From Diacronema lutheri (Eukaryota > Haptophyta > Pavlovophyceae > Pavlovales > Pavlovaceae), in NCBI GenBank assembly GCA_019448385.1, contig JAGTXO010000017.1:434001-498000 (forward strand): DNA of 64,000 bases, read 5' to 3'. Numbering within the stretch: the first letter of the stretch is position 1; every line of letters starts with the position of its first letter. Below the pieces are notes generated by a model, which searched no databases, was not told the origin of the DNA, and saw only the letters and a program-made list of their open reading frames with translations. The position numbers were made by a program, and so were the translations under genes. Positions 3,001-33,117 of the stretch are shown in pieces.

Positions 3001-3047
3001 CGAGGGCGGCAGCGGCAGCGGTAGCGGCAGCGGCAGCGGCAGCGGCA

Positions 3048-3079
<32 letters not shown>

Positions 3080-3770
3080 AGCGGCGCGTCGCGCCCGCTC
3101 GGCTGCGCGCAGCTGCCGCGCACGCTCGAGTGCGCGGCGGCCGCCGCGCTCTACGTCGGACGCTTCGACGCGCACGCCACCGTCCGCACCGCCGCCGCCG
3201 CCGAGTGGAAGCGGCTCGTGCCGCACGCCGCGCGCGCGCTGCGGCTGTGCCTGCCGCAGCTCACCGAGCGGTTGCTCGCCGCGCTGGCGGGAGGCGACGA
3301 GGACGCGCAGCGCGTCGCGGCCGAGGCGCTGTGCGAGGTGGTCTCCAAGATGGGCGAGCGCGTCTTCGCCGAGCTGCTCCCCGCGCTGCGCGCCGGCCTT
3401 GGCGACCCCGAGCCGCAGCGGCGCGTCGGTGTGTGCTACGGCCTCGCGCAGGCGGTCCGCGCCGCGCCGCGCGAGCAGGTGAAGGCGGCGGCGGGCGAGC
3501 TGCTGCCCGCGCTGACCGCCGCGCTGTGCGACGAGGCCGAGGGCGTGCGCGACGCGGCGACGCAGGCCCTCGGCACGCTGCAGCGCGCCGCCGGCGCCGA
3601 GGTTCTTAACGGCGCGCTCGACCAACTACTCGCCGACGTGGCGGCGGGCGGCGCGCGCGAGGACGCAGCGTGCCGCGGGCTCACGGCCGTGATGAGCGTG
3701 CGCCCGTCCGCCATGCTGCCCGCGCTCACCGCCGCGCTGCTCCCGCCGCCGCCCGCCGCCACCGGCGCGC

Positions 3771-3807
<37 letters not shown>

Positions 3808-5111: not shown

Positions 5112-5143
<32 letters not shown>

Positions 5144-14117: not shown

Positions 14118-15956
14118 ATGGTGGTAGTACAGGCGCGGCTCCTCGCCGCCGTGTCGACGAGCAGCAAGGCGGCGCTCGTCACGTCGCCCGGGTTCGGCAG
14201 GGCCTTTGCGGCCAACCTGCTCGCGACGAGCGCGCTTGCCGCCGCCGCCCACCACGTGCCCTTTGTGAGCGCGCACGCCGCGCGCGCGCTCCACGCGTTC
14301 CAGCTGGCGACGCTCAACGCCGCGCACCGGTATGCGTGGTGGGGCGCCATCTCGCTCCTCTCATCGTCGTGCTGCGCGCTGCAGCTGCTGCTCAACCTCG
14401 CGTCGGTCGGCTGCGCAGGCTTCAACCGCGTCCTCGGCCCGCTCCGGCCGTTCCTGCTGTCGGTGACGCTGCTGCTCCAGCTGTCCATGTGGCGCGTTGC
14501 GCTCGCCGAGCAGCCGTGGCAGCTGCCCTTCTGCGCCGCCGCCACGCTGCTCACAGCGACGCTCACGTTTCTACCCGAGCTCCTCGACGCGACGAACCGC
14601 ATCCGAGCCGCGCGCCTCGCGCGCCGCGCGCGCCGCGCGGCAGGCGCGCCGCTCGCCGGCAGGGGCGGCGCGCCCGGCGGCGCGCCCGGCGGCGCGCCTG
14701 GCGGCGCGGAGCGCTTCGAGGTGCGGCTGGCGCTGCCGTCTATCGGCTGCACGGCGTGCGTGAGCAAGATCACCGCCGTCCTCGCCGCGCACCCGCTCGC
14801 GTCGTGCATCGAGAGCGCCGAGCCCAGCGTCGAGGACGCGTGCGTCCTTCTCGTGCTGCGCGCCGGTCGGCGCGACGAGGCGTCGAGCGGCGGCGCGCGC
14901 TCCGGCGGCGGGGCGGAGCCCAGCGGGGCTGCCGCGGCGCCGACCGAGCCCGCGCGCGCATCCGACCAGGCGCCGGCCGTGGACGACATCGTCGCCGCGC
15001 TCAGCGCGGCGCTCGCCACCGCGGGCTTTCCCGCCGCCGGCGCGCCGCCGGCCGTGCGCCCGATCGCCACCACCGACGCGCGCGCGCCCGCGCCTGCCGT
15101 GCGCCGCGCGCGGGGCGGCGGGATCGTCGCGAGCGGTGCCGCGCACGCGCGCGCGGGCGACGCGTCGCCGGCGGTCGTTGCGTGGTGGCGGCACGCGGGC
15201 GGGCTCGTCGGCGCGTTGCTCGCCTCGTCGTGCTGCGTACTGCAGCTCGCGATCAACTGGGCATCGGCCGCGCTCGGCCTCGGGCTCGGCTGCGCGGGCT
15301 TCAACGCGGCGCTTGGGCCGTGGCGGCTGCACCTGCGTGCGCTCACCACCGCGTGGCTCGCCTCGCTTTGGCTGCCGGCGCTGCGCGCGCGCCGATCGCC
15401 CGGCGGGCGCCTCGTCGCCTCGACGGTGCTCACGATCATCCTCGCCTCCTCGCCCGAGCTCGTGCGGCTCGCCGGCGGTGGCGGCGCGCGAGCCGACCTC
15501 CGCGTAGGCGCGGGCGCCGACGTCGGCCATCGCGGCGCGCTCAGCGCGCTCAGCGCGCTGGGGGGCGCCGCCGCGCGTGGCGACGGCGCGGCGCCGCGCG
15601 CGCCCGCCGCGCAGACGGTTACGCCGCAGACGGTTGCGCTGCGCGTCGACGGGATGGGCTGCGAGGCGTGCGAGGTGGCGGTGCGCGCGGCGCTCGGCGG
15701 CGCGCGCGGCGTCGTCGGCGCGCGCGCGCGGTACGAGGACGGCGTCGCGGACGTAACGGTCGCGGCCGGCGACTCGCTCGACCTGGCTGACGTGCGTGCG
15801 CGCCTTGCGGCGGCCGGCTTTGAGCTGCTTGCGCACGGTGGTGGCGCGGGCGCGCACGGCACGCTCACGATGGCGCGCGACGACGCGAGCGAGGGCGACG
15901 CCCCGATGCCGAGCGTCGTGGCGAGCACGCCGGCGGCGGCGACGCTTGTGGACTGA
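14118..15956 (+). CDS. Tandem MerT-like / HMA metal transport protein
   Basis: Single exon, 612 residues, built of two copies of the same pair of modules. Module A1 (residues 70-160) has membrane segments with SSCCALQLLLN followed by GCAGFNRVLGPLRPF. Module B1 (200-250) is a heavy-metal-associated domain with the pair in IGCTAC. A2 (360-450) repeats the pattern with LASSCCVLQLAIN and GCAGFNAALGPWR. B2 (505-570) is a canonical HMA domain, VDGMGCEACEVAVRAALGG. The membrane blocks resemble bacterial MerT (SSCCVLPL ... LxPYRP), which passes mercuric ion across the inner membrane, and the HMA domains correspond to MerP-like or copper-chaperone domains. So it likely binds and moves a soft metal across a membrane. 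No plastid presequence is obvious. Confidence 0.75.
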   Translation: MVVVQARLLAAVSTSSKAALVTSPGFGRAFAANLLATSALAAAAHHVPFVSAHAARALHAFQLATLNAAHRYAWWGAISLLSSSCCALQLLLNLASVGCAGFNRVLGPLRPFLLSVTLLLQLSMWRVALAEQPWQLPFCAAATLLTATLTFLPELLDATNRIRAARLARRARRAAGAPLAGRGGAPGGAPGGAPGGAERFEVRLALPSIGCTACVSKITAVLAAHPLASCIESAEPSVEDACVLLVLRAGRRDEASSGGARSGGGAEPSGAAAAPTEPARASDQAPAVDDIVAALSAALATAGFPAAGAPPAVRPIATTDARAPAPAVRRARGGGIVASGAAHARAGDASPAVVAWWRHAGGLVGALLASSCCVLQLAINWASAALGLGLGCAGFNAALGPWRLHLRALTTAWLASLWLPALRARRSPGGRLVASTVLTIILASSPELVRLAGGGGARADLRVGAGADVGHRGALSALSALGGAAARGDGAAPRAPAAQTVTPQTVALRVDGMGCEACEVAVRAALGGARGVVGARARYEDGVADVTVAAGDSLDLADVRARLAAAGFELLAHGGGAGAHGTLTMARDDASEGDAPMPSVVASTPAAATLVD

Positions 15957-16434
15957 GTGATGCGTGGTTGCGTGTGATAACCGTGTAGGCGCACCGGTGT
16001 TCAAGGGGTCATGTCACGAACAGATTCTGGTATAGATGGTCAAGCCAAATCCGATCAGGGGCACGATCGCGCCCCGAGTGCAGCGCGGGCCATTCGGAAG
16101 GACGTCCTTGAGAGGGAGCTCTTCGCGTTTGGCGAGCGGGGGAGCACGACGCGCAGCGTTGCTGCGGCGGCGTGCGGGCGGCGAGCAGCGGTCGGGCTGT
16201 TCGAGACGAGGCCGGAGCAGACGGCGCCGTGGCCGCCGGCGCAGGTGACGCGCGCCGACGAGCCGTAGCAAGCGTCCGTGATCCGCTCGGCGGTTGGAGC
16301 GGGCCGGCTGGTGCGGCGCGCTCGGCCACGGGCGGCGGCGTGCACGGGCGTGCCGAATGCGTTACGCGTCGCCAGCCGCGCGCGACCTGGGCGGAGCCCG
16401 CAAAGCGTCGACCGCTGCGTGGCTCGGCCGTGCG
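15957..16434. other. Non-coding flank 3' of the Fanzor ORF
   Basis: No convincing coding frame on either strand. On the minus strand this is directly downstream of the Fanzor stop codon. In TnpB and studied Fanzor loci the guide RNA overlaps or follows the 3' end of the nuclease ORF, so this is the place to look for one. I cannot define a hairpin or element end by eye. Confidence 0.3.
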
Positions 16435-19400
16435 TCAACGCCGGCCGCGCTTCGGCCCGCGCGCGCTGCCGCCGCCGGCACTGGCGCTGGCAGCTCCGCG
16501 GGCGGGGGTGCGGGCGCGAGAGCCGCCGCCGCCACCGCCGCCGCGCCCGCCGCCGTCGTCGCCACCGCCGTCGCCGCCGCCGCCTCCCCCGCCGTCATCG
16601 TCGTCGTCGCCGCCGCCGCCTCCGTCGCCGTCGCCGTCACCGTCGCCCTCGCCGCCGCCGCCGTCGCCGCTGCCGTCGTCGTCGTCGTCGCCGTCGCCCT
16701 CGTCGTCGCCCTCGTCGTCGCCGTCGCACTCGTCGTCGCAGTCGTCGCCCTCGCCGTGCACCATGCGCTCCTCACGCTCCCACACCTCGCCGCGCGCCCA
16801 CCAGGCGAGCACGAGGGCAAAGCGCTCAGGCGTCGACGTGGTGTCGCGCCCGGCCGCGTGCGCCGCCATGTCGTGCACGTCGTAGAAGATGTTGCGCGCG
16901 GCGTTGTAGTCGCGGTGCACGGGCTTCTTGCCGCCGTTGCACGCCGGGCAGATGACGAGCGCGTGCACCGTGCGCGTGCCGCCCTTTGCCACGGGCAGGC
17001 GCGGGTTCTGCGCGAGCTCCGCGCCGCAGCGCTGCAGCCTGCCGCCCTTGGCGAGCCGCGGCATCGAGCAGTGCATCGACGTGTACGGCTCGGGCACGAA
17101 GACGGCCGCGACGCCGCGCCGCCGCAGCTCGCGCAGCAGCCCCACCTGGAAGGCGGGCGGCGCGCCCTTGGGCTGCGCGCCCTTGTGGTCGCGCAGCCAC
17201 TTGCCCACGCACACGAGCAGCCGGTCGCGCGTCACGCCGTCGACGCAGTGCGCCGCGATGAGCGCCTCGGCGACGCGCGCCGCGTTGGACCGCCCGCCGC
17301 TGTCGCGCCGCCAGCGCTCCTTCCGGCGCGCCGGCGCGTCGTACACGTGCTCGGCGGCGCGCTCGCGCACCCGCGCGCTCTCGCGGTGGAAGGCGATGTA
17401 TTTGCCCGCGTCGAGCACCTTGGCGCTGTGCGCCTCGCCAAGCCGCGCCTCGTCCGCCTCCACGCTGAACTCCTCGCCGCGCCCGTCCTTGCGCACGCGC
17501 CGCCGCGCCGCGTTGGTCTTGGCCGTCTCGCGCGCAAAGCCCGCGGCGCGCGCGCGCGCGCGCTGCGTGAACTGCCGCCAGACGGCCGCCCGCCCGACGT
17601 GCGCAGAGTAGGTGGTGATGTTGCCCATGTTCGGGTCGGCCGCGACGACGACCGCCTCCTCGACGTCGATCGCCCGCCGCAGCTCGGAGCCGAGCGCGAC
17701 GGCGATGCGCCCGTCCGGCCGGCGCCAGCGGTGCAGGACGCCCGAGCCGCCGGCCGGCGCCTGCGCCTTCGGCACGAGGACGGTCCCGACGGCGTGCACG
17801 GCGACGCCATCCGTCACCACCGACTTGACGGGCTGCCGGCCCGGGAGCGGCACGCGCGGCAGCGGCGCGAGGCCCACCCACGAGCGCCGCGCGTGCCACG
17901 GCAGATCGGCTGGCGGCCGCTCGCGCCCGGCGTAGTCGAAGACGCGGTTGGAGATGTCGAAGCGCGTCGCGAAGACCGCGTACCTGACGCGCACGTCCGA
18001 CATCGGCGGGATGTTGCCGCTTGTGCCTGTCCACTTGATCGGCTCGCCATCGTGGTCGCGCAGGTCCAGCGCCTTGAGCCGCGCGCGCAGCTCCTTGCGC
18101 TCGTCGTCCGGGAGCGTCTCCCAGATGGCGTTCGCGGTGAGGCGCACGTTGCGCGGCACCTGCGCGCAGCGCGCGGCGCGCGAGCGCGCGGGCGCGTGAC
18201 CAACCTGGCCGCGGGGCGGCGCGCACGGCGGCGGCGCGCGCGCTTGGGCGCTCGGCGGCGGCAGCGGCAGCCGCGCCTCGCGCGCACATTGTGCGTGCGC
18301 AGCGGCGCCACATTGTACCGCGGCGGCCGTCCGGTCAGCTGCGTGTGGATGTGCGCGAGCCGGCAGAGCAGCGCCTGCCCCTCGGCCACGTGCTGCAGGT
18401 TGCGGATCTGCACGAGGAAGTAGCGCGTCGTGTGCCGGTCGTAGTTCCACCTATCCGTGGGCGTGCACTTGTAGTCGATCTTGTGGAGGACCATGTCGGG
18501 CAGGTGGCGGTCGAGCGCGGCGGGGCAGCCGACGCGCGCGCCCTCCACGTCGCCGCGCAGCAGCCGCTCGCACAGCTCGCGCACGCGCGCGTTTCGCTGC
18601 ATCTCGGGCAGCGCGACGAGCGCCTCGTCGCGCTCGACTGCCGCGCGGACGACGTCGCGGAGCAGCCCGTTCACGACGCGCGATGGGTGCATCAGGCACG
18701 CGGTGGACACCTGCGTCGCCTCCTCATTGAGGATCTGCGTGAGGCCCACCGCGCAGACGGGCTGGACGCCCTCGGCCATCTCGCCGACGGCGCGCGCCGT
18801 CGCCGCCTTGGTCTGCGCGGCGGCTTGCTCGGCGGGCTTGCCTCGCGGCGCTGCACCGTACGTGCTCTCGTCCTTGTGCCAGCCGATGGCCGAGAAGATC
18901 GCACAGACGGTTCCCTTGTCCATCGTGGTCGACGTGTGCACGCTGGTCGACGGGCCGCCCGACGCCGCGCCGGCGGCCTGCGCGCTCGCCACCGCAGCCT
19001 CGTCGCACACCACCTTGTTGATGACGCGGTACGCCTGTGTCGTGAGCCTGTGCACGGCCGCCGCGATGCGCCGCAGCTCCTTCCGCGCACCGGGCTGCGC
19101 CGTCACCGCCTGCGGCCCCGCGTTGAGCGTCGAGCGCTTGACGACGAAGCCCGGGAGCACGCTGCCGCGCGTGCGCGCCGTCGCGCCGCCGGCCACGCGC
19201 GCGCTCGGCGCAGCGGGCTCGTCCACGCGCGCGCTCTCGACGCCGCGCGCGCGGGGAACGCTCGGCGCGCGCGCGCCCGCGGCGCCGCGCGCGCTCGCGG
19301 CGGCACCCGCCGCGGCGCGCTTGCCCGCGGCGCCCGACACGCCGTGCGCGCGAAGCGGCGCCGACGCCGATGCCGACGCCGCGCCCGCGCCGCCGCTGCC

Positions 19401-22400
19401 GCTGCCCGATCCGCCCGCGCGCCGCTTCTGCTCGTCGCGCGTCTTGCGGAACTGGGCGACGAGGTCGCTGCTCACGTTGGCCTCAGGCTCCCACGTGTCG
19501 GCGCTCTCGTCGTAGCCCCGCCACCTGATCCGGAACTCGAACGTCACCCGCTTGCCCGCCTTGCGGCGCTCGTCGACGACCGCCTCGACCTCGTACGTGC
19601 GCGCCTCCTCGTCGACGCTCGCGCCCGCCGCGCTCGCGCCCGTGTCCGGCCACCCAGCGACCGTGCCGCCCAGCCTCTCGGCGGCCGCGCGCAGCTGCCG
19701 CTCGCGCTGGGCGGCCGCGGCGCCTCGCGCGACGAGCGCGGGCAGCATGCCCGCGCCGCCCGCGAGGCCGTGCGCGCCGACGCTGGCGGTCATCAGCGCG
19801 TCGAGGCACGCGAACGTTGCGAGCGCACGCGCGCCATCGTCGCCGCCGCGCGGCTGCGAGCGCACGACGGGCGATGGCCGCGGCTCCCCCTCGGCCGCGA
19901 GCAGCGGCCAGATCGCACTGGCCAGCGCGACGGCATGCGCGCCGACCGCGACGGCCACGTCCGCGTCGAGCGGCGCAAAGTCGTAGCGCACGAGCGCGGC
20001 CGGGCGCGAGTCGTCCGTCGGCCGGTCGGCGACGAGCAGCCCGACCGGGCGCGGCGGCTCGCCGGACGGCGCGGCGACGGGCACGCAGAGGAGCACGACG
20101 AGCAGGCGCGGCGTGCCGCCGAGCAGCGCGCGCGCGGCATCCGCCCCGTCGGCTCCGCCGCGCGCGGCCGCGGCGAGCAGCTCGGCCGCGCGCGTCGGGC
20201 CCAGCGCCGTGCGCGCGTCCTTGCGCGCGCGTGCGCGCGCCGTGTACGCGGCGCAGGCGTCGTCGAGCACCGCCGCGCTGGGCGCGGTGCCAGTCGTCGC
20301 CCACGCGCGCAGCGCGTCGCGCACCCGCGTGATGATCGCCTGGTCGACCGCCGCCTCGCCGGCAGCGTGCGCCGGCGCGCACGCCGGCGGTGCGGCGGCA
20401 GGCGCGAGCGCGGGCGCGCCGTCGGCGCCGTCAACGCCGACGGCGCCGTCGGCGCGCCGCCACGCGAGCTTCGCCTCGATCTGCTGCCGGACGGCGTGGC
20501 AGTGCCGGTCGATGCCGCGCGCGTCGTCGAGCGCGGCCAGCGCGTCCTCAGCGGCGGGACGGCCGCTCGCGTCCGCGACGGCCTGCAGGCAGAGCAGCGC
20601 GGCCGCACGCGCGTTGCACGCGCTCTGCGGCTCGGGCGCGAGCGCGAGCTCGAGCTCGAGCGGCGACGCGCCTCGCGCCGCGGCGATCGCGTCCATCAGC
20701 ACGTCCAACCGCTGCACCAGCGCCCTGTGCGCGTCGCGCGGCGCGCCCGTCGACGGCGCGCGCGAGCGCGTCGCCACGAGCCCGAGCGCGCGCGCCGGCG
20801 CGCCCGCCGGCGTGTGCAGCACGAGCAGCGCCGCGCCCGCCAAGCTCGCGTTGCGCGTGACGAGCGCGAAGATGCGCGTCGCCTCGTGCGCGCCCACCGA
20901 CGCCAGGATCGCAGCGCGATCGGCGTCCGTCTGCGCGTCGCACAGGTCGCGCACGTCGTCCGGCGCGAGCAGCGCGCCGCCGCCGGCGGAGCGCGCGACG
21001 ATCGCCCGCGCCTCCGCCACGAAGACGGCCTGCGGCAGGTCGGCGTGGCGCGCGTCGACGATGGCGCGCGTCGCGTGCACGCCGAGCTCCACGCCGCGGT
21101 AGAAGGCGCGCGCGTTGGCCGCGCGCGCGTGCGCCGGCCGTCCGTCCGCGTTGCGCCTCGCGCGCGCCTGCTTGCTCGTGCGCGCGAGGCCGTCGCGTGG
21201 CGGTGGCGGCAGCGTGGCGAGGAAGCGCGCGGCGGGCGGCGGCGCGCGCACGCCGCGCTGCCGCCGTGCGATGGCCGCGAGCCGCCGGCCTGCCGCGCTG
21301 CCGCCCGCGCCGACGTGCTGCCGGCGGCCGAGCGCCGCCGGTGGCGGCGGCGGCGGCGCGGCGGCGGGCGGCGGCGCGGCGGCGGGCGGCGGCGCGGCGG
21401 CGGGCAGTGGCGCGGCGGCGAGCGGCGGCGGCGGCGGCGGCGGTATCGCGGCCACGGCGGCGGCAGCAGCGACGGCGGCGGTGGTGGCGGTGGCACCGGC
21501 GCCCAGCGCGGGCGGCGGCGGCAGTGGCGGCGGCGCGGCGGCGGCAGCGGCGGCGGCGGCGTCTGCGGCGGCCTTGGCGCCGCGCGTCTGCCGCGGCGCT
21601 TCTGCGCGATCGCGTCTGCCCCCGCCACGCACCGCGCCCGCGCCGGCGCAGGCGCCGCTCGGCGCACGCCCGCTGGCCGCACCAGTCAGCGCGACGCGGA
21701 GGTGCTCGCCGACAGCGTACATGTCCGCCACGCTGAACGTGCGCGGCGCGGACGCGCCGCCCGCCGCGGCGAGCGCGGCGTCGTTGAGCGCGCCCGTCAC
21801 GGCGAGGCCGCATGTCGCGCCACGCTGCGCCGCCTTGTCGAGCAGCCGCGCGCGGCGCACGGGCAAGACGTCGAGGCCCGCCGCGTGCAGCGTGGCGGTT
21901 ATCGCCCTGGCACGCTTGAGCGCCTGCCTGCTCGGCGACGCGAGCGTGTCGACAAGCACCGCGTCGTAGCGATGCTCGCCCGCGCGCGCGACGCGCACGA
22001 GGCGCAGCGCGGTGAAATGGCCGGAGGCGGGCGGCGTGCAATCGTCACTGCCCGCACCGCCGCGCCCGCTCGGCGGGCTCCACATGCCGATGACCGCCTG
22101 CGTCGTCGCCTCGCTGCGCAGGCGGTGCAGCAGCGCGGCGCGCTCGGCGCCGTCCTGGAACACCGCGGGCTGAGCGGCAAGCGGCACATGGCAGACGCGC
22201 CCTTCGCCGGCCTGCCCGTGCACGCGCAGCACGACCTCGCAGCATGCGTCGACAGTGGAGGCGAGCATGTCGCCGCCCGCGATGCAGTCCACCTCTGCCT
22301 GCGGGATGCCGGCGCGCGCGGCGGCATCGGCCAGCCGGAGCGCAGCCGCGTCGCCCGCCCACGCGAGCAGCGCCGGGGCGGCGGGCTGGACGCCGCGCGG

Positions 22401-24563
22401 CGCCACGGCGGGCTCGGCCGCGGCGGGCCGGGCGGCGGCTGGCTCGGCGGCGGCGGGCTGGGCGGCGGCTGGCGCGGCGGCGGTGGGCTCGGCGGCCGAC
22501 GATTGGGTGGCAGGCTGCGGCGCGGCCACGGCGGCGGTCGGGCGGGCGGCGGAGGCGACGGCGGCCCATGCGGCGGCCGAGCACACGGCGACGAGCCAAA
22601 AGGCGGTGGCTGCAGACGGGCGAGCGGCCGGGGCAATGGCAGCCCGGACGGCAGAGGCGGCGACGACACTCGCGAAGATGCCGACGGCGCACCGGACAGT
22701 GGCGACGGCGACGGCGGCACCGGCACACGGGCGGCGGTGGGGGCAGTCGGGCTCGGCGGCAGGCTCGGCGGCATGCTCGGCCGAGGGCCGATCGGTGCGC
22801 GACGGCGGGCTGCGACTCGCGCGGCAGAGCGGCTGCGGTGCGTGCTGGCCGCCCTTCGCGCACCTGCGCTTGCGCTCGCGGCGCGCGTCGCCGCCACGCA
22901 ATCGTCGGCCGACCGCCCGCTCTGACCTGTCGATTGACCTCCGCAGCCGGTCGCGCGCGCGCTTTGCCGCCCGCCGTGCGCGCCGCGGTGGTGCGCGCGG
23001 GCATTGGTCGGGCGAGCTGCGCGGGGCGGGCTCGCAGCAGCCGCCGTCGCATGCGTGCGCGCAGCCTCGGTCGCACGGCGCGCAAACGAGGTCGTCGGCG
23101 CCGTCGACACCGTCGACGCCGTCGCCGCGCGCTGCGGCTGCGAGCGCGCGTGCCGCGCCGTCGTCGCCGGCCGCCGGCGCCGCTGCGGCGGCCGCGGCGT
23201 CGGCTGCACGGCGCTCGGGCTGCGGCTCGAGCGGCGGGACGGCGCCGGCCGCCGCGGGCGGCGCCGTGTCGAGCGGCGCAGCCGCGGCGCGCGCGCGCGC
23301 GCGCGCACCCTTTGCGCCTGCCGCGAGACGCCACCCGCGCGGGCGCCACGCGCGCCGCGGCTCGGCGGCCGCGCGACCGGCGGCGCCGGGCGTGGCGGCG
23401 GGCGCAGTGCTCGAACTTGCGTCTGGCTCGGTGGCCGCGAGCCGGCGTAATTGCCGCGCAATGCAGGGCTGCACGTCGAGGCGCGCCTCGTCGAGTCGCG
23501 AGAGGAGCTCGCGCGCGCGCGTGCCGAGCGCGGCGCCGTCGCACTCGGCACGCGCGCCCGCCGGAGCCACCGAGCCTTCGGGGTCGCGCGGCGCGAGCAG
23601 CTCGCGCGCAGTCGCGAGCAGCTCCGCCTGCTCGGCGGTGGGGATGCTGGCGCGGCGCAGCGCGAGCTCTGTGTGCGCGGGCAGGTGGGCGCCCACGGCC
23701 TCGGCGTGCATGAGTAGCGCGCGCGCCTCCGCAGGTGCGTCCGCCTCGCCCATCTCGGACGCGGCGAGCACGCCCGCCGCCTCAGCGGCGAGCGCGAGCC
23801 GCGGCGACGCGAGGTCGCGCAGCGACCGCAGCAGGTGCGGGGGCAGCGCGTGGCCACGCGCCTTGACGCGCTCGAGCAGGGCGCGCGCGCGCGCTGCATC
23901 GTCCGCAGAGCCCAGCGCGCACTGCTCGATCAGGCGGCCGGCCGCGCGCTTGTCCTCGCGAAAAAGCTGCTCGCGGTGGAGCGCGCGGCGGGTCTCGCGC
24001 TTGGCGAGCGCGTCGGCACGCGCCCTGCAGCCCTCGTCGGCGGCGGCGGCGAGCTCGGCAACGCCGCCAGGCTCGGTGGCGGCGGCAAGCGTGGCGGCGA
24101 CGGCGCCTACCTCAGCGGCAGCAATGCGGTCGTCAACGCGCTTGGCGGCAGCGCATTTGACGGCGGGCTGGTCGGCTGGCTTGGCGTCAGGCACGGTGGG
24201 AGGCTGGGCCGTGGACTGGGCGGCGGGCTCGGCGGTGGGCTCGGCAGCGGCGGGCTTGGCGGCGGGCTCGGCGGCGGGCTGGGCGGCGGGCTGGGCGGCG
24301 GCGGGCTCGGTGGCGGGCACGTCCGCCCGGCCAACAAAAGCGGCTCGAAGCGGTTGCTCGCGCGCATGCTGGCGCGCGGATGGCTCGGCGGCAGAGCAGC
24401 GGGCCGAACGCCAGCGCCCGCGCCGAGGCCTGGCCGCGCTGGCTGCCAGGGCTGCTCGCGCTGCTCGCGCTGCTCGCGCTGCTCGCGCTGCTCGCGCTGC
24501 TCGCGCTGCTCGCGCTGCTCGCGCTGCTCGCGCTGCTCGCGCTGCTCGCGCTGCGGGCACCAC
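16435..24563 (-). CDS. Fanzor RNA-guided nuclease fused to Ulp1-like protease and chromodomain
   Basis: Exons 18288-24563 and 16435-18159; the 128-bp intron (GTGCGC donor, CGCAG acceptor) joins in phase 0 and restores a Fanzor block (NVAPLRTHN then VPRNVRLTANAIW). About 2666 residues from the first open codon; no ATG opens the frame, so the N-terminus lies upstream. Order: Ala/Pro-rich N-terminus; C48 (Ulp1/SUMO protease)-like domain with His in GHFTALRLV (~847), Asp in VLVDTLA (~869), Gln and Cys in QRGATCGLA (~918); two weaker copies of that fold; chromodomain (~1655-1710, RIRWRGYDESADTWEPEANV); Fanzor region (~1850-2560) with RuvC acidic residues in AADPNMGN (~2267), VPEPYTSMHCS (~2448) and HRDYNAARNI (~2510), and zinc-ribbon cysteines in MHCS, QRCG and CPAC; then an Asp/Gly tail ending in a basic patch. 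The family cuts DNA guided by an RNA. Catalytic sets look intact. The long plus-strand frames here are shadows. Confidence 0.85.
24451..24554 (-). repeat. 9-bp tandem repeat, about 11 copies, at the N-terminal coding region
   Basis: Plus-strand unit GCTGCTCGC. Read on the minus strand it encodes Ala-Ala-Arg repeats in the frame of the Fanzor ORF, and Arg-Glu-Gln repeats in the frame of the exon that starts at 24667. Both frames stay open across it, so the two exon blocks overlap here in different frames and an intron or frameshift must reconcile them. Confidence 0.85.
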
Positions 24564-24667
24564 GTGCGCTTGCGCCGGTTGTGCTGCACATCCCCGCCCT
24601 CTGCTGCCGGCTCAGGATTTGCGCATGCCCCGATTTGGCCGCGCCCAACGGTTGGCGTGCGCTGGTC

Positions 24668-24891
24668 CTGCGCGCGGCCGGTGGGCAAGAGGTCGGGCGG
24701 GCGGGAGGCGTAGGGGATGCGTGAGGGTGCTGCACGCTTTACGCGCAAACTTTACCTGGCGCGAGCGCAAGCGCCGGGCGCCACGCCGTGGACAGCGGAC
24801 GGCGTGCGCGTGCGAGGTGCAAAAGGTGGAAGGGGTAGAAGGAGGGGGGGGGGGGGGGCACAGCGGCCGCCGGTGACGAGGACGCACTCAC
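24668..24891 (-). other. Predicted intron linking the USP exons to the Fanzor-fusion locus
   Basis: The second USP exon ends at 24892 in GCG followed by a strong donor GTGAGT. The downstream sequence has a C tract on the sense strand (plus-strand G run 24846-24858), the intron signature of this genome, and an acceptor GCGCGCAG at 24668-24675. Both ends are phase 0. The exon that follows (from 24667) reads DQRTPTVGRGQIGACANPEP and on into the Arg-Glu-Gln repeat. Confidence 0.5.
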
Positions 24892-26284
24892 CGCCATTGG
24901 CAATGCGCGCGTCGCGGAGACAGCTTGGCGGGCCTCGCACGCAGCTGGGCCGATCGCCGCCGCAGGAGTGTCTGCAGCCGTCTCCGCGATGCCGATCGTC
25001 GCATCTGTTGGCCCCGCTGCCATCTGCCGCACCCGCGACCAGGCTGCCGACAGGTTCGGCGCGTCGGGCGCCGAGCTCGGCCACGAAGGCGATGCGGCCG
25101 ACGGCGGTGACGCTGAACCCAGCGCCGGGTCCAACGGTTCCGCGTCGAGCCGGCTGTAGAAGAGCATGCTCGCACCACTTGCCCACGCCAGCGCGTCGGA
25201 CTGAGACAAGTTGTGCATCTGCGCGGGCAACGCGCGTGCGTGCGGCAGGCGCGCGGCGCGAGCTTTCAGGCCACGCGCGCGTGCCGCGCGGGAGGACGGG
25301 GCGGCTGCGGCTGCGATCAACCGCCGGTCGCGGCGCCAAGCGGCCGTGCGCGCCGCCGCACGTTGTCGTCGTCGCACAGAAACCAAGCCCCGTTGCGGAG
25401 CACGAGGGCGACAGGTGCCCGCTCGTCGACTCCTCGCCCAAGTGCACGACGGCGGCGACGAGGAGGTAGTCGCGCCCGCCGAGCAGCAGCCGCGGCGCGC
25501 ACACGAGCGCGTGCTTGTTCTTGCACTGCGAGCCATTGCCGCGCGTCGTGCGCGGCACCTCGACGGCAATGCTGGCTGGCATGAGCACGTCCGAGCGGCA
25601 CGCGTCCGGGCTGCCACCCTGCGGCGGCCCAGCGACGCCCCCCAGAGCGTGTGCGAGCGTGCGCGCCGCATCGCCGCCAATGCTGACGAGGATGGCGATG
25701 CCCTCGCCGCGCTCGCTCGAGGCCACAGCGATCGGCTCGAGCACTACGCGTCTGTCGTCTTCGAAGGCAGCAGCGAGCCCGGGCACTCGGCCGAGTAGCA
25801 TCTGGAATAACTCAGCAGCGTCCTGCTGCGTCCCTCGCGTGCCACGGCCCAAGATGACGTCGACGACGGACACAAGACACAGCTGTGCCGGCGCCTCGGT
25901 GTCCTCGAGCAGCGTGCCAAAGTCCCGAAAAAGCGCCTTCTCGACTCTTCCCGCACGGCGCGAAGCGGAGCGGGGCATCGGACGGAGCACGTTCAAGGCG
26001 ACGAGCAATTGCGCGAGGGCGTTCACGTAGCACGCGTTGCCCTCGTTTTTCACGCCTGCGCCGCGCCGCGCAGCGCCGGGTGTGCGGGGTGCGCACGCAA
26101 GGTTTACGGCGGGTCGGAGAGAGGCTGACTGGGAGCGCGCCGAACCCCGCGAGCCGTGCAGGCGCTCACCACGCGGCACGTCGGGCACTCTCACCGGCCA
26201 CATCGGGCCGATGAACGCGCCTCCCACAGGATGCCGACCGACGACTCGGAAATTGCTCCAGGCGCTGCGCCGTGCACGCGTCAT
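24892..26284 (-). CDS. USP-type ubiquitin-specific protease (C19) with one frame lesion
   Basis: Exons 25372-26284 and 24892-25218, intron 25219-25371 (GTGCGG...CGCAG). Cys box: KNEGNACYVNALAQLL, with Ala replacing the usual Thr before the catalytic Cys. QQDAAELFQMLL is the conserved QQD motif. His box: YLLVAAVVHLGEESTSGH. After the catalytic His the frame shifts by one base near 25413-25414; in the shifted frame VALVLRNGAWFLCDDDN continues the family pattern exactly. Exon 2 supplies SGASMLFYSR, the family's C-terminal strand. The enzyme removes ubiquitin from proteins. The lesion could be an assembly deletion or real decay; the intact motifs on both sides and clean splice sites favour the former. 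ATG 26284 is chosen because the frame before it starts without ATG. Transcription runs toward the Fanzor ORF, and the last exon ends in a donor, so the transcript continues. Confidence 0.7.
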
Positions 26285-27690
26285 GCGCGCGCTGTTGCGG
26301 GCTACGCAGCAGAAACGACGGGGGAATAGGCGAGCGAGGGTTGGGCGCAGATCAGCGTGGTGGCGCGGCAAGACGGGCGCGCGCCGGGCGCCTGGCGCGG
26401 AGGCGCGCCCGCGCGAGGACGCGAGCCGCTTCTCGCACCGGACGGGCGCCCACGCGCAAACCGGCTTTAGAGGGCCAGATGGATGGTGGCCGATGCCGAG
26501 TCAGCGCGGCACCCGCCTTTGAAAAAGGGCGTCGCGGCACTGCCCGAAACGGGCCGAAAGCGGTACGGACGAGCCGGGCGCCATGAATGGAACGATTCGA
26601 CGGCGGCGCGAGCGCGGGACGAGCGCGGGACGACCCGCGCCGACTGCACGCAGCGCCGGCCTAGGCGCGCATCCGCCCGACGCGGATTTGGACGACGCGT
26701 CGACAGGCACGCCGAGCGTCTGCGCCCGCCTCGCGGCCGGTCGCGCCGGCCCCTCTTCGGCTCGCGGCCGCACGTGCGCCGCGCGCCGCTTCGGCGCGCG
26801 GCGCGGCGCGCCCGGAACGCGCGGAACATACGCGCGGTGCGCGGGCACGCCCGCAACGCGCCATTCCAGCGCGAGCAGTTCGGCAAGCTTGCAGCTCGCG
26901 AGCAGCCGGGCATGTGCCGCGGACACACAGTTCGCTGTGTGCGCCGGCCGCGACGACACGGCGTAGCGGCGCGAGGCTGGCGGCCGGGGCCACGGGCGTA
27001 ATCGTGGCGCGACGCCATGGCATGAGAAAAAAATCCATGCCGAACGCGCTGTACGGCCATGGCGTGTCGGATCCGCCCCGCAGCCAGGACCGCATTTTCG
27101 CTCGGCCACGCAGCGGACCACGGCGCGTTGTGCGCGCCCGGCGCGACTGGTGCGAGTGGCGGGCCAAGCCGCGTCGCCCACGGAGCCCGCCCCCGGCTCG
27201 GCGGCACCGCTACCGCTTGCTCGCCGGGCCGCGCACCGCCGTCGCCGCCGCTGCGCGCTTGCCCAGCTTGCCGGCAGGCGGCGGCGGCGGCGGCGGCTGA
27301 GGTTGCGGCTGCGGCGCGAGCGCGACGCCGGGCGGCGGCAGCGCCGACGGCACGCGCGCAGCGGCGACCCACGCGGCGGCGGGCAGCGCGCCAGCTTGAG
27401 GCCCCTGCGCGCCGGCCGCATTGGCGCCGCCCTGCGCGCCCTCGAAGGGCGCGCAGGTACGCGGGCCGGTCGCGCGGCGCGCGGTGTCGGCGAGCACCCG
27501 CCGGCTGCGCGTCGGCGCGAGCGGCGCGGCGGGCGTCGCGCCGGCGGGTCCTGGCCAGCACCGCGCGCCGGCGGCGCGCCCGCCGCCAGCGCGCCGCCCG
27601 CCGCCGGCGCCGCGCGCGCCGTCCGCGCCCGCCGCCACCGCGCGCCGCCGCCGCGCATTCGCGCGCGGCGGCGACGGCGGCCGCGGCGAG
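26285..27690. other. GC-rich stretch without a convincing gene
   Basis: Between the helicase remnant and the USP start. Minus-strand frames stay open but read as Ala/Arg/Pro-rich low complexity with no motifs. It may include a degraded C-terminal tail of the helicase (one frame runs to a stop at 26467) and the USP promoter. Confidence 0.4.
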
Positions 27691-29590
27691 CGCCGCCGCC
27701 GCCGCCTCGCCACCGCTGACCGCGCGGAGCACCTCTTTGCAGACGACGCTGCGCGTCACGAGGTCCGGGCCGAGCGCAAAGCGGACGCGCGACGTGTGCC
27801 CGACGCGCGAAGCGGCCACGTGGAGCTGGCCGTGCGTGAAGCACGGCTCGGCGAGCCACACGCCCGCGCACCCGAGCGCTTGCCCCTGCGCCTCGTTACG
27901 CCGGCCGCACCGGGGAACTGGCGGCGCATCCGCACAAGCGCGAACGTGCCGTCGTCGGGCGAGTGGTGGTCGACACGCGCGACGAGCACGGTGCTGTCGC
28001 GCCCGGCGGCCGCGCCGGGTCGTGCGCACTCGAGCAGCCGGCCGCCGGCGCGCACGCCGCGCACGATCAGCCGCGTGCCGCCGCACAGCCCCTCGCCGGG
28101 CGAGAGGTTGCGCGGCAGCATCACCACCATCCCGGGCTTCAGGTCGAGGACGCGGTGCGGCATCTGCGCGTGCTCGAGCGAGTCGAGGAATTCGACCGAC
28201 GCCAGCGCAATCTGCTTGCCCGCCCCGTCGTCGCGCCAGCTCGTCCGCCGACGCGCACCTCGCCGCCGCGCCCGGGAAGCGGCCGATCACCAGCCAGTTG
28301 ATCCGCGCCACGTCCGTCTGCTTGGCGCAGAGCACCGCGCGGTCGCACAGCGAGCCGTCGTCGGTCCAACACGTCGCGCCGTGGACAAAGTCGTCACGAG
28401 CTCCGTTGGGTATGCCGAGCCCACGCGGATGGGGACGCCGCCGACGGCCTCGGGCAGCTGCACGGGATCGAGCGAGAATGCGCCGGGCATGGCCCCGGCC
28501 GCCGGCACCGCCGCGGGAAAGGCGCCGTCGCCGGGGCTGCGCAGCAGCTCCGCCCACTCGCCCGCGCCGAGCGCGTCGCCCGTGTCGCGCGCCGCGCTCG
28601 AGGCGCGAAAGTTCTCGACCAAGGCGTGCTGCCGATCGTGCTGCCACGGCGCCGGGTACTTGAGGCAGGAGCGCACGATCTGCGCGCGCGAGCCGCGCCG
28701 CACCACCGGCAAGCACTGGCGAAAGTCGCCGGCGAGCAGCAACGTCTTGCCGCCGAAGCGCTCGTCGACGCCCGTCACGTCGCGCAAACACCGATCAGGC
28801 GAGTCGAGGTGGCACCGCGTCTGCATCGGCGCCTCGTCCCACACGACCAGCCGCCGCGGCGGCCAGGGAGCGCCCGCGCTCGGAGCGCGGCACGCCATTG
28901 AACGGCTTGCCCGTCGGAGTCGGCACCGCCGGGCACCTTGAAGGTCGAGTGGAAGGTGCGGCCGTCGGGCAGCAGCGTGGCGGCGACGCCCGAGGACGCG
29001 CCCACGACGACCGCGTGCCCATCCGCGCGCACGGCGGCGATAATGGCGCGCTCGACGAACGTCTTGCCCGTTCCGCCCGGCGCGTCGCAAAGATGCAGCC
29101 GGTTGCCCACGCCGCGCAGCGCCGATTTGACGACCGCGCCGTGGAGCGCGCGCTGCTGGCCGGTCTCGGCCATCGCCGCGCGCGCCGCCGCCGCGCTCGC
29201 AGCCCGCTCGGCGCGATGGTAGCCCTGCGCGCGCGCGAGCTCGCGCCCGCCCAGCCCGGCCGGCGCGCGCGCCGTGCGCAGACCGGCCACCGCCGCGAGC
29301 GCCGCCGCGCGCTCGCGCTCGTCGGGCACGTACGGCCCCGTGGAGTCGAACGTGTCGGCCCAGGCGGGCACGCCGTACGAGGCGAAGGCGTCCGAGCCGG
29401 GCTGCGGGCGCTGCTCGGCGCGCCTGAGGAGCATGACCCCGCACACGTTCCACTTGGTGCCAAACATCGAGCCCGTGAGCCCCGTGTAGACGCAGTCGAG
29501 CTGCGTGGCGATGGCGCAGACGTCCTCGTGCCGGATCTCGTCGACCGGTTCGCCATCCGTGGCGTCCAGGATGGCGACTGCGCCCGGGCC
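27691..29590 (-). pseudogene. Pif1/Helitron-type SF1 helicase, frameshifted
   Basis: Helicase motifs occur in order but in several frames. Walker A in CDAPGGTGKTFVERAI and motif Ia region ASSGVAATLLPDGRTFHSTF (about 29090-28950). Then a frame change to motif II, LVVWDEAPMQ, and motif III, GKTLLLAGDFRQCLPVV (about 28860-28730). Another change gives DRAVLCAKQTDVARIN (about 28345). A third gives LKPGMVVMLPRNLSPGEGLC and GTRLIV (about 28140-28070). A fourth gives AQGQALGCAGVWL and FTHGQLHVAASRV (about 27890-27810). These match the Pif1 family, especially the helicase half of Helitrons. At least four shifts in 1.5 kb make a pseudogene the simplest reading. A Rep nuclease half is not seen; upstream sequence stops being recognisable at 29.6 kb, next to a MITE. 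Confidence 0.75.
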
Positions 29591-29739
29591 GTGACGCCGC
29601 GGCGTCGTTCGGCTGCGTCACGGAGGAGCGCCATCCGTGCGCCACGGAGGAGCGGCAGGACCACGACGCGGCGTGACGCTGGACGACGCCATGCTGTCGA
29701 GGCGCCATGCTGTCGAGCCGCCATGCTCTGAGGCGCCGC

Positions 29740-30048
29740 CGCTTTCTAAAAGGGTGTAGGGTGTAGGGTGTGGGATGCAAAACAAGCCCTCCCCACATTT
29801 GGGCCCGACGTCATTCCTTCTTTCGTCACAGCGTCATTCCTTCTCCCCCCTATGGGACTTTCATAACCGTACTTATCCTACACCCTACACTATGCAAATA
29901 CTTAGAGAATAGATACATCCTACACTAAGTAAAAGTACTCGTATGTGAGTAACGTCACGGCTTCGAAGAAGGAATGACGTCGGGCCCAAATGTAGGGAGG
30001 GCTTGTTTTGCATCCTACACCCTACACCCTACACCCTTTTGAAAAGCG
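29740..30048. mobile_element. MITE-like non-autonomous DNA transposon with ~80-bp terminal inverted repeats
   Basis: The left end (29742-29825) and right end (29963-30045) are inverted repeats of about 80 bp with few mismatches, starting CTTTCTAAAAGGGTGTAGGG on the left and CTTTTCAAAAGGGTGTAGGG on the right (read inward). Each begins with three telomere-like heptamers (GGGTGTA). The internal 140 bp is AT-rich and has no ORF. GGCGCCG flanks both ends and may be a 7-bp target duplication, although the palindromic core GGCGCC makes this ambiguous. Family cannot be assigned. Confidence 0.85.
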
Positions 30049-30178
30049 GCGCCGAAGGTGGGAGGAAGCCACCCGTATGCGCGCGTTTGAACGTGCGCGG
30101 ACGGCCGTTGGCTTCGCGCCCTTTCGCCCACGGTTTGCGCGCCAACGGACCAGTCCTCCGCAGGCGCCGCGCATCGTC

Positions 30179-30382
30179 TCAGAGGCGGTCGGTGTGGTAC
30201 GCCGCGCGCATCGTCAGCGCCGCGGCGTCGAGCTCGGCGGGCGAGGGCGCGTACGTGACGCCGCTCAGCACCTCGTCCGCGCCCGCCCTCGTTGCGCTCG
30301 CCGCCTCCGCAGTGCGCGCAGGCGGCTTCGTGACGGCACGCGAGGCCACGCCGCGCGCTGCAGGTGCCTTTTCGCGCTGCAT
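30179..30382 (-). CDS. Short orphan frame beside the MITE
   Basis: A 67-residue frame with a plausible ordered end (LSGVTYAPSPAELDAAALTM) divergent from the ORF at 30469. Nothing recognised; could be a gene fragment or chance. Confidence 0.2.
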   Translation of the reverse strand: MQREKAPAARGVASRAVTKPPARTAEAASATRAGADEVLSGVTYAPSPAELDAAALTMRAAYHTDRL

Positions 30383-30468
30383 TGTCTGTCTGCCGGTCCG
30401 ACGCGCTCTGCTCTGAACGAACGGACGTCACGCCCGACGAGATCTCGTCGCGTGCACGCTCGCACAAC

Positions 30469-31513
30469 ATGTACCCCCAGAACTTCTCCGAGCTGCTGCC
30501 CGACGAGATCTTCGGCGACGAGCTGCTCGTCGCCCGGCACTACCGCGTGCGCATCCTTCAGCGCGTCGCCCGCCGCCGCGATGCGGCCGAGGCCAACTTT
30601 TGGCTCGACGGCGGGCCCGCCGACTCGGTCGTCGGCGCGTGCATGTGCGGCCGAATCTACGCGCTCAAGTGCATGGGCCGGCTCGTCCGCGGCGCCCGGA
30701 TCCTCGCGCTGCTGCGCACAAACGTCGCGCTCGCCACGTGCCGCGCGCACCTCATGGGCCACATGCTCCAGCGCATCGTCGGCGACAGCGGCGTCGCGCG
30801 GCTGCTGCAGCTGGTTGCAGCTCGTTCGCGTGGATCACGACACGCTCAACGCCGAGCGCCAGGCCTTGGAAGCACAGCATGACACCGGCCAAATCATGCG
30901 ACGGCATGAACGCGCGCGCCGACGCGCTCTCCAAGGACCTCGCACGGGCGCACGAGCACGCTCACAAGCTCGATGGCTATCTGGTGTGGTGCAGCGAGCG
31001 CCTCGGTGGGAGTGACTCTTTCAACGGAGCGCTCGAGAACCTGAACACGCGGTGCAGCATGAGATGTGCTGGCTCCACGCCGAGATGTCGTCGCTCGTTG
31101 CGAGTTCGCCCGAGGCTTACGCGAACGACAGCGAGGCCACCGACTTCAAGGACCACGGCGTGTGCGTCGAGTTCGATGTCTTCAACCGCGACGGGGTCGA
31201 GGGCGCGCCCGTGCCCGCAATCGCGCCCACGAAGGCAGAGCCGGGCATCGAGTCCGAGTGCATCGCGCCCGCACAGGCAGAGCCGGGCAGCGAGTCCGAA
31301 GCGTCGCGCCCGCACCCGCGCCCGCGCCCGCGCCGGCAGAGCCGCGCACCGAGCACGAGTGCGCCAACGTGCCGCCGAACTCGCCCAAGCTCTCGTCGGT
31401 CGACAGCCAGGCCACTGAGTACAAGACCTCCTACGCGAACTCACGTGCTCGCCACCTGCAACGCCTCGAGTTCACGCACGCGTTCGAGTCTGTGCAGGCC
31501 GAGGTCGCGTAAT
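30469..31513 (+). pseudogene. Decayed ORF of unknown family
   Basis: From ATG 30469 the frame reads MYPQNFSELLPDEIFGDELL and stays ordered to about 30830 (LARHYRVRILQRVARRR; CMCGRIYALKCMGRLVRG). Ordered sequence then continues in other frames: VDHDTLNAERQALEAQHDT (about 30830-30890), NARADALSKDLARAHEHAHK with YLVWCSERLG (about 30905-31050), and CWLHAEMSSLVASSPEAYAN with VCVEFDVFNRDGVEG (about 31066-31210). The middle part looks like a coiled coil. At least three frame changes suggest decay, although unrecognised introns are possible. No family recognised. It lies just outside the MITE and may belong to the same accessory region. Confidence 0.4.
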
Positions 31514-31959
31514 CAAAGCGCGCCAAGGTTCCGGCCACCGGCGCATCGAGGCGCTGGCTGCGCAACACGGCCGTGCGCAACACCCGCAGATCGGCCAACG
31601 GCAAGTAGCGCGCCGGCGCAGCGCACGGTATGCCGCGGCGAGCTCAGTCGCCAGAGTGTCCGACTGGCCGCGCCCTCCACGGGGTGCACGCGCACTCGGC
31701 GCGGTCCGGTCAGTCAGAGGGCCTCAGCTTGCGCGATGCCAGTTGCGATCCCCCCCGGAATCCGCCATTCTATTCGACTGGGCGTCAATCACCCAAGCCC
31801 TTCCGGTCGCCCGCATTCCGGGGTCGGACTCTCCGTCGGCCCGGCTCGGGCCCTCCGTCCGCCGCGCCCGCTCGACCCCGAATTCTACTCAAAATCGGCC
31901 GGTCAGGAGGGGGGTCTCGGTCCTAGGCTCGTCCTAAGCCTCGCTCCGACCCCTCGAGC

Positions 31960-32060
31960 GCTCATTGGCTGGCTTTTAACCCTTGATTGTACGACCCAGG
32001 TCGTACTCTCAGCCGTACACTGGCCGGACCAGCCCGGACCGCGCCCTATATAGCGGGCGT
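31960..32060 (+). promoter_or_regulatory. Orphan core promoter-like region
   Basis: In order: a CCAAT-type box in reverse (ATTGGCTGG, about 31965), an 8-bp inverted repeat with 2-bp spacer (GTACGACC / GGTCGTAC, about 31988-32005) and a TATA box, CTATATAG (32047-32054), flanked by GC-rich near-palindrome. TATA boxes are rare in this GC-rich window, so the set stands out. Confidence 0.45.
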
Positions 32061-32115
32061 ACGACGACGTCTCAAACGACTCGTCTTTGGCAAGCAGCTT
32101 ACAACGCGGTCACTG

Positions 32116-32586
32116 ATGGAAACGGCACGACGGGTGCTGCTGCATGCCTGGCGAGCCACTGGCGGAATGAGCGCGCCGGCGCCGGCCAGCGGACGAGCCG
32201 AGCCGGGCAGGCGCGGCGCGCTGACCCGTCGAAACGCTGCGTACGCGCCGCGCACCTCCAGCCCGGCTTCTCCCGCGAGCTTACGCCCGCCTTGCTCAGC
32301 CTCGCCTAGCGTCGACAGCGTCTGCGTGCAAGCGCCCGCCCCGCGTTCAGGCATGCTGCCTTGCGCAGCGCACGCGCGCCCAGCGAGTGCTCACCCACGC
32401 GCCGAGGGCGCGCACACGGCGTACAGCGCGCCTGCCACTGCCGTGCTGCGGCCGGCGCCGTGCCGAGAGCAACTGCGCCAGCCAGCCGCGCCCGGCGACC
32501 GCGGGCGTCGCGCAACGCCTCGCGCCACGCCTCGCGGCCGCATGGCGCGCCGGCGCGAGCAGCATCGAGCGACAGCCGAGCTATGA
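32116..32586 (+). CDS. Weak ORF downstream of the orphan promoter
   Basis: An ATG 62 bp after the TATA box opens a 156-residue frame. The sequence is Ala/Arg/Pro-rich without motifs, so coding is doubtful. The promoter could instead drive a non-coding RNA. I see nothing else in 31514-32699. Confidence 0.2.
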   Translation: METARRVLLHAWRATGGMSAPAPASGRAEPGRRGALTRRNAAYAPRTSSPASPASLRPPCSASPSVDSVCVQAPAPRSGMLPCAAHARPASAHPRAEGAHTAYSAPATAVLRPAPCREQLRQPAAPGDRGRRATPRATPRGRMARRREQHRATAEL

Positions 32587-32699
32587 GCGAGCGAGGCAAG
32601 CACCGCATCCACCAGCGCCGCGCGAGTACCCCACGCGTGCACCGAGGCACGCTCCACATACGCCGCGCCTGCCGCCGCGCCGGCGCGTCGCCGGCACGA

Positions 32700-32864
32700 T
32701 TACCAAAACTCCGTGTCCTCGAAGAACATGAAGTCTGAGAGGGTGAGCGTGCCGATGGAGATGACGAGGACCGACCACATCAGCGGCTGATGCGAGAACA
32801 TCATCAGCGCGAAGCTGCCCACGAAGAGCCCGGTGAGCGCCTGCCGCCGGCTGTTGAACGCCAT
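32700..32864 (-). CDS. 54-residue small membrane protein
   Basis: ATG 32864 to stop 32700: MAFNSRRQALTGLFVGSFAL, then a loop and a second hydrophobic stretch (WSVLVISIGTLTLSDFMFF) and an acidic end (EDTEFW). The two membrane segments and lack of Arg/Ala bias indicate a real protein, either a complete small gene or the last exon of a longer one. It is divergent from the kinase gene (253 bp between starts). No family recognised. Confidence 0.55.
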   Translation of the reverse strand: MAFNSRRQALTGLFVGSFALMMFSHQPLMWSVLVISIGTLTLSDFMFFEDTEFW

Positions 32865-33117
32865 ATGAGCCGAGCTCCTTCTGCTGCTGTGCGAGGAGGC
32901 CGTGCGAAGGGCGACGGCTGCGCGCGGAGGGTCGGGTGCGCGCCGACGCCGCTGCGCGTGAGCGCTTCGCTCGCCCGCGCGCGCGCGCCTCGCGCCCTGG
33001 CCCGTGCCGCGCCGCGATCGGCGAGGGCCGGAGGCGAGCGCGAGCGCCCGTACATCGATCTTCTGCCAGAGCCGGGGCCGAAGCGAGTCCGGGTCGGCGA
33101 GCGTCCGGATCCGCACG

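Follow-up and report, generated by a model that had tools for sequence, protein, structure and literature searches.

Organization of the locus

Within a 64,000-nucleotide stretch of the Diacronema lutheri genome (hereafter the window), the minus strand between positions 16435 and 24563 encodes what appears to be an in-frame fusion of a chromodomain with a nuclease of the Fanzor type, and this join is well supported by the sequence. Comparison with the rest of the genome shows that the locus covers the 3' half of a single copy of a giant DNA transposable element, which is present in high copy number in this haptophyte. Two open frames are present on the minus strand, one with the chromodomain (17814-24563) and one with the zinc ribbon of the nuclease (16435-18450), and their coding parts are separated by a short intron:

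18288..24563, minus strand: open reading frame up to the end of exon 1, in which the protease-like region is followed by the chromodomain and then by the N-terminal half of the Fanzor
19443..19595, minus strand: chromodomain, residues 1657-1707 (PF00385, E 6.4e-12; 45.6 bits, cut-off 25.1)
18288..19160, minus strand: Fanzor N-terminal half, with no Pfam match of its own, reading through an intron junction common to the annotated protein KFE25_006464
18160..18287, minus strand: phase-0 GT..AG intron of 128 nt, whose length and ends are constant in 7/7 copies
16435..18159, minus strand: exon 2, with the Fanzor RuvC nuclease, zinc ribbon, acidic/Gly-rich tail, and stop codon (PF07282, 1.9e-6; homologues P0003, P0004, and P0005)
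17635-17637, 17089-17091, and 16909-16911, minus strand: RuvC residues (first Asp, Glu, and last Asp, respectively)
16888..17127, minus strand: zinc-ribbon/TNB region, from Pfam and residue mapping
17068-17070, 17026-17028, 16948-16950, and 16939-16941, minus strand: zinc-ribbon Cys codons

The aromatic cage of the chromodomain is intact (Y1657, W1681, and Y1684, aligned to CDYL), at the positions that form the cage in HP1. Since the cage is kept, the domain likely binds a histone mark. No in-frame ATG occurs across the 146-residue stretch from the chromodomain to the Fanzor in any of six copies (6/6); in the window the nearest in-frame ATGs upstream are at residues 1591 and 1606, and the next one downstream is at 1881. 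A Fanzor begun upstream of its N-terminal half would therefore carry the chromodomain, barring an unseen splice acceptor. Chromodomain places inside frames of at least 4,000 codons number 102 out of 146 (150 scored of 260 candidates, minus the 4 best, which are host-like). The intron junction, RTHN/VPRNVRL, is the same as in KFE25_006464 (P0006), a protein of the D. lutheri annotation, which was made using BRAKER2 with RNA-seq (PMC8379373). The first-pass annotation of this DNA had described a single minus-strand gene in which a chromodomain is fused to a Fanzor. The chromodomain and the in-frame fusion are borne out, as are the strand and the frames, but the gene is not one frame, as the intron splits the Fanzor.

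The KFE25_006464 gene model itself combines a Fanzor piece, across the intron, with SAM domains, and is either an annotation artefact or a case of gene capture of element sequence.

A divergent Fanzor-type nuclease

Fanzor proteins have been described by the motif D-X(125,275)-[TS][TS]-X-X-[zinc finger]-X(5,50)-RD (PMC3627910) and by an alternative RuvC2 glutamate (Ealt) six residues before the zinc ribbon (PMC10711439). At the locus, the gap from the first Asp to the TS is 184 residues, the TS stands in the arrangement TS-M-H-C, and RD follows 9-10 residues past the last Cys. Six residues separate the Glu from the first Cys. The zinc ribbon matches the TnpB/Cas12f model PF07282 (E 2e-6; 28.3 bits, cut-off 26.3), and the RuvC D-E-D residues and the four Cys are identical in 7/7 copies read. 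The RuvC/zinc-ribbon end, first annotated as intact, thus retains D-E-D and the PF07282 match but has an irregular first Cys pair and DPN at RuvC1. DPG has been described as near exclusive at this position in the Fanzor lineage (PMC10711439). Because DPN replaces it, we label the predicted nuclease as Fanzor-type and divergent, and file it neither as Fanzor1 nor as Fanzor2.

A search of the protein database with the Fanzor exon gave four matches, and the Fanzor N-terminal part matched KFE25_006464 only. The relatives P0003, P0004, and P0005 are 97%, 46%, and 39% identical, respectively, and derive from contigs of 1.5-2.4 kb, which are too short to show any chromodomain. The first RuvC Asp is conserved in P0004 and P0005. 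All three D-E-D residues are present in P0004, and P0005 ends before the Glu. The exon-2 frame had a single, chance-level match in the PDB.

The genome also contains a second, more canonical Fanzor family (L002:1-1758 and L004:802-1758) with the motifs DPGKNK, GDWS, and DESYTSQDCSKC...CAWC...DRDFNAARN. Its open frames reach 1,779 codons. Places scoring 40-44.5 bits number 20, and the motifs were read at these two.

A giant element in many copies

The copy in the window is 16.0 kb long and lies between the following boundaries:

16033..32053, minus strand: whole element copy, with ends placed by alignment with other copies
32046..32053, minus strand: 5' terminus CTATATAG, followed by GGCGCGG... 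and adjoining the 26-base motif counted genome-wide
31989..32006, minus strand: palindrome by the 5' end, perfect in the reference copy and with one mismatch in the window copy (sequence comparison)
29734..30054, minus strand: inverted-repeat region by the 5' end, with 89-nt arms that are 94% complementary; its counterpart in the reference copy is a palindromic region of ~880 bp

The 5' end is thus at 32053 and the 3' end at 16033, give or take a few bases, since the element may extend through ATAC as far as 16030. In the genome searched (103 contigs, 43,492,796 bases; strain NIVA-4/92 has a reported assembly of 43.503 Mb with 73.25% GC, PMC8379373), a 25-base pattern of the 3' terminus was found at 228 places and a 26-base motif of the 5' terminus at 239 places, each with at most two mismatches; the backwards controls gave none. 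Pairing the first 100 listed of each terminus gave 68 copies, of which 31 are ~31.0 kb long, the commonest length, and 12 are ~21.5 kb, the remainder being mostly near 26 and 29 kb. As a reference we used a copy of 31.04 kb, C9a (C9:1127562-1158600). Taking some 200 copies with lengths of 20-31 kb, we estimate that the family would make up on the order of a tenth of the genome, for which repeats of 22.9% have been reported, with long terminal repeat (LTR) elements and long interspersed nuclear elements (LINEs) dominant among the annotated ones (PMC8379373). The copy counts rule out a single-copy host gene.

In the 20 copies for which both ends were compared, the element begins with CTATATA... 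and ends with ...CATCTATAC. TATA is present at the 5' border in 20/20 of these and at the 3' border in all 19 that are readable, the contig of the twentieth ending too early; the 3' flanks reach a contig end in six of the 20. The flanks are mostly unrelated in sequence, except that three 5' flanks carry another repeat in common. No long target duplication was seen at the borders of the copies compared. Terminal inverted repeats were considered and rejected, as the two ends give only short, chance-like matches to each other. A search for viral relatives gave 35 pattern matches, none of which was confirmed.

An abundant second repeat, which contains GCTGTCCTGACGTAAGCGCCGTT and has 206 places in the genome, adjoins the elements L034, L056, and L068. 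Twelve contigs (C1, C3, C5, C6, C8, C10, C12, C13, C14, C32, C33, and C43) stop within a few bases of the 3' terminus. These ends are more simply explained as assembly breaks than by a telomeric element, probably because a 31-kb repeat exceeds the PacBio subread N50 of 23.458 kb (PMC8379373).

An internal deletion and mosaic-looking copies

Positions 21520-24790 of the window match 30 other copies at 96-97% identity and mark a second subfamily; the larger subfamily among the 150 scored places is 84-85% identical to the window in the protease-like region. The spacing from the protease-like region to the chromodomain is 2,134 bp in the window versus 7,753-7,786 bp in the 20 of the 30 subfamily copies that could be paired, and in 18 of these 20 the difference is a whole number of codons. 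By this comparison, an in-frame deletion of 5.6 kb in the window copy brought the protease-like region near the chromodomain, and the tight order of three domains seen in the window is due to this deletion.

21329..21497, minus strand: deletion junction zone of Pro/Ala-rich repeats, where the flanking C9a matches overlap and 5.5 kb of C9a is missing

Part of the missing stretch corresponds, in the long copy read (C9a), to an exonuclease region. Between the window copy and C9a, the 3' 5.4 kb is 98.3% identical and the 5' parts are 97% identical, while the middle is 86-93% identical or unmatched. Because the ends are so similar and the middle is not, the copies look mosaic, which suggests exchange between subfamilies.

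The protease-like region

The third domain named in the first-pass annotation was a C48-like, SUMO-specific protease with a His-Asp-Gln-Cys set.

21660..22373, minus strand: protease-like region, with His at 22017-22019, Asp at 21948-21950, Gln at 21825-21827, and Cys at 21810-21812

The set exists, at residues 849, 872, 913, and 918, and the region is free of stop codons in 150/150 places scored, including the window (out of 228 candidates, at 84-100% identity). A pattern drawn up post hoc and run over 294,962 translated residues picked out just two distinct places. Both belong to the element, and they have no BLASTP match to each other (E 0.23). However, no Pfam family, including C48, matches the region up to E 10, and an AlphaFold2 model from an alignment of two sequences has a mean predicted local distance difference test score (pLDDT) of 42.5, too low for the model to be usable. 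The region may be a cysteine protease, but with a motif only, the SUMO-protease label is not justified. Proteases in large mobile-element polyproteins may equally be able to cut their own polyprotein. The proposed unit of protease, chromodomain, and Fanzor does share one frame as far as the Fanzor N-terminal half, but its short spacing arose by deletion, and the long copy has a putative RecE-like exonuclease between the protease-like region and the chromodomain.

Other coding parts of the element

Two more domains are encoded upstream in the window copy, in frames of their own:

28515..28961, minus strand: PIF1-like helicase domain of the Helitron type (PF05970, 6.1e-24)
25790..26056, minus strand: ubiquitin carboxyl-terminal-hydrolase-like domain (PF00443, 1e-7, 32.3 bits against a cut-off of 23.9)

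Both recur in C9a, where the helicase matches Pfam at 1.8e-24 and has Helraiser as its nearest solved relative (3.9e-25 versus 4.6e-6 for human PIF1), and the ubiquitin-hydrolase-like domain matches Pfam at 4.3e-8, with no PDB match at E 0.01. In C9a, a putative RecE/lambda-type exonuclease lies between the protease-like region and the chromodomain in a frame of 4,513 codons, which also holds the Fanzor N-terminal part and is followed by the Fanzor exon. This frame has no stops; the chance of 4,513 stop-free codons is ~10^-18 under an independent-base model, and each of the remaining five frames there is broken by 9-48 stops, so the frame is more than a chance occurrence. The exonuclease matches PHROG 434 at 1.1e-15 over ~190 residues (this PHROG is without a curated cut-off). 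A further C9a frame of 1,345 codons has a second stretch resembling H-D-Q-C. In the frames scanned, there were no matches to reverse transcriptase or integrase families. No known RNA family reached its gathering score in 15000-33000.

Possible mode of action

We suggest that a chromatin-tethered, RNA-guided nuclease, made as the tail of a polyprotein together with its chromodomain, probably helps this giant transposon to keep and copy itself by recombination. The Fanzor is the last gene of the element, 400 bp before the 3' end, and in known systems the guide RNA is made from the element end and its flank (PMC10711439).

16033..16434, minus strand: 3' region from the stop codon to the terminus, the expected place of a guide RNA (reRNA), by position only

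The Fanzor would be guided by an RNA from the 3' end of the element plus the flank. An RNA ending in ...CTATAC plus flank would have as its target the empty site beside TATA, so that the nuclease could cut either this empty site or the sister allele, alongside the TATA motif of the border. The element would then be copied back by recombination, aided by the exonuclease and the helicase, and the presence of these two enzymes in one element fits recombination copying. The chromodomain would tether the machinery to a chromatin state marked by methylated histones, and the protease-like regions might cleave the polyprotein into its parts or have host proteins as substrates. Copy-promoting cuts have been proposed for Fanzors, and Fanzor1 has been reported in Helitrons and other transposons (PMC3627910, PMC10432273). 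A fuller version of this scheme is an all-in-one, chromatin-tethered recombination machine serving the spread or persistence of the transposon, in which RNA-guided cutting by the Fanzor would be followed by resection by the RecE-type exonuclease and long copying synthesis driven by the PIF1-type helicase, with the chromodomain as an anchor; we regard it as unlikely in this complete form.

Several observations weigh against the recombination reading. The nuclease is atypical, with DPN in 7/7 copies (P0005 has DPG and P0004 DTG) and a zinc ribbon in which the second pair is CPAC and the first reads C-S-M-P, its other Cys following at a distance of 14 residues; two CxxC pairs are thus not found, although PF07282 is nonetheless over its cut-off. 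The score with the NCBIfam TnpB model is 12, far under its cut-off of 100, and solved Fanzor and TnpB proteins have no sequence match, the best exon-2 profile match being a Cas12f1 at E 0.01. The exonuclease of C9a falls below the cut-offs of Pfam YqaJ (21.2 bits versus 22) and NCBIfam (25.4 versus 68) and gave no convincing match in the PDB; the window copy, aligned to C9a, lacks it. In the 3' region, the predicted fold of 16033-16260 is no better than that of shuffled sequences (z -0.26), and C9a, which is outside the 20-copy set, lacks TATA at its 3' border. Neither a transposase nor an HUH Rep was recognised among those of the element's frames that were scanned. An integrating enzyme would still be needed, because new insertion sites differ in sequence, and none was found among these frames. 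Protein-database searches gave no instance of the same fusion in other species; the search with the long C-terminal half gave no match at all, its list of 8,000 candidates presumably having been filled by low-complexity words.

Selection was assessed by the ratio of nonsynonymous to synonymous rates (dN/dS) between the window copy and C9a. On the favourable side, the protease-like region has a ratio of 0.44 on 65 changes, the stretch from there to the chromodomain 0.53 on 8 changes, and Fanzor exon 2 0.40 on 16 changes. Further points on the unfavourable side are the ratios of 1.4 in the chromodomain, 2.6 in the linker, and 1.2 in the Fanzor N-terminal part (3, 7, and 13 changes, respectively). 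Selection on the fusion is therefore not demonstrated by these ratios, which speak mildly against strong constraint on the joined part in the window copy.

As an alternative, the element could be a rolling-circle transposon of the Helitron type with an unrecognised Rep, in which Fanzor, chromodomain, and exonuclease are accessory cargo. We hold this to be a tentative but serious possibility. It would explain the similarity of the helicase to that of Helraiser, the palindrome near the 5' end and the hairpin near the 3' end, and the lack of a long target duplication, and Fanzor1 is known from Helitrons (PMC3627910). However, Helitron_like_N (PF14214, the HUH Rep) occurs once in the genome, at C63, outside the copies read, which themselves have no match. 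Helitron ends are 5'-TC and CTRR-3' (PMC3627910), in contrast to the ends of the 20 copies, which have TATA at both borders. A canonical Helitron was rejected on both counts.

Alternatively, the chromodomain could serve ordinary target-site choice, with the Fanzor as a passenger or acting only in cis, so that no RNA-guided function depends on the chromodomain. Chromodomains are accessory parts of LTR-retrotransposon polyproteins (PMC6338049), and with the low counts of changes, selection on the link was not detected. However, D-E-D is intact in 7/7 copies and is kept by P0004 at 46% identity (P0005 is uninformative here), and we consider this explanation rather doubtful. A fusion of Fanzor, chromodomain, and SUMO protease that would remove SUMO from chromatin selected by RNA, as first proposed for the three patterns found in one gene and largely in one frame, is very improbable, since the gene belongs to a high-copy mobile element with an internal deletion in this copy, the region lacks a C48 match, and its structural model is too poor.

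Relation to known systems

Like described Fanzors (PMC10432273, PMC10711439), the predicted nuclease is a eukaryotic TnpB relative encoded next to the 3' end of its element, with D-X(184)-TS-XX-C...RD and Ealt six residues before the zinc ribbon. It differs from them in the in-frame chromodomain at its N-terminal side, its position as the tail of a giant polyprotein, the DPN and first Cys pair, and the very large element. With Helitron and Helitron2, the element has in common the helicase type, hairpins by the ends, the absence of long target duplications, and a known association with Fanzor1, but it differs in its terminal bases, its length of 31 kb, the RecE-like exonuclease and chromodomain, and the absence of a recognisable HUH Rep. 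Retrotransposons that bear chromodomains include the chromoviruses. Such retrotransposons resemble the element in having a chromodomain within a mobile-element polyprotein (PMC6338049), whereas here the partner is a probable RNA-guided nuclease, and the frames scanned have no reverse transcriptase or integrase match. Through its match to PHROG 434, the long copy recalls the RecE/lambda (YqaJ) exonuclease of phages and large DNA viruses, but here the putative enzyme would sit in a eukaryotic transposon polyprotein, it scores under the Pfam and NCBIfam cut-offs, and it is absent from the window copy. In the literature searched, which was mostly without subscription journals, we found no description of a chromodomain-Fanzor or TnpB-chromodomain fusion and none of a Fanzor with YqaJ.

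The carrier is thus of a known kind, a Fanzor-bearing transposon, while its architecture appears to be real and unusual, with a fusion that is solid at the sequence level. If the proposed reading is true, nature would here have attached a reader of histone marks to an RNA-guided nuclease, and longer copies would have a recombination exonuclease joined to it as well. Such parts are now joined by hand for targeted gene insertion. The role of Fanzors for their transposons is an open question (PMC10432273), and many near-identical copies in a culturable alga would offer a system in which to study it.

Elsewhere in the window, an array of C-rich tandem repeats of ~90 bp occupies 35115-36494, and a large plus-strand frame at 1610-5893 with HEAT repeats of the EF3/GCN1 type is probably a host gene.

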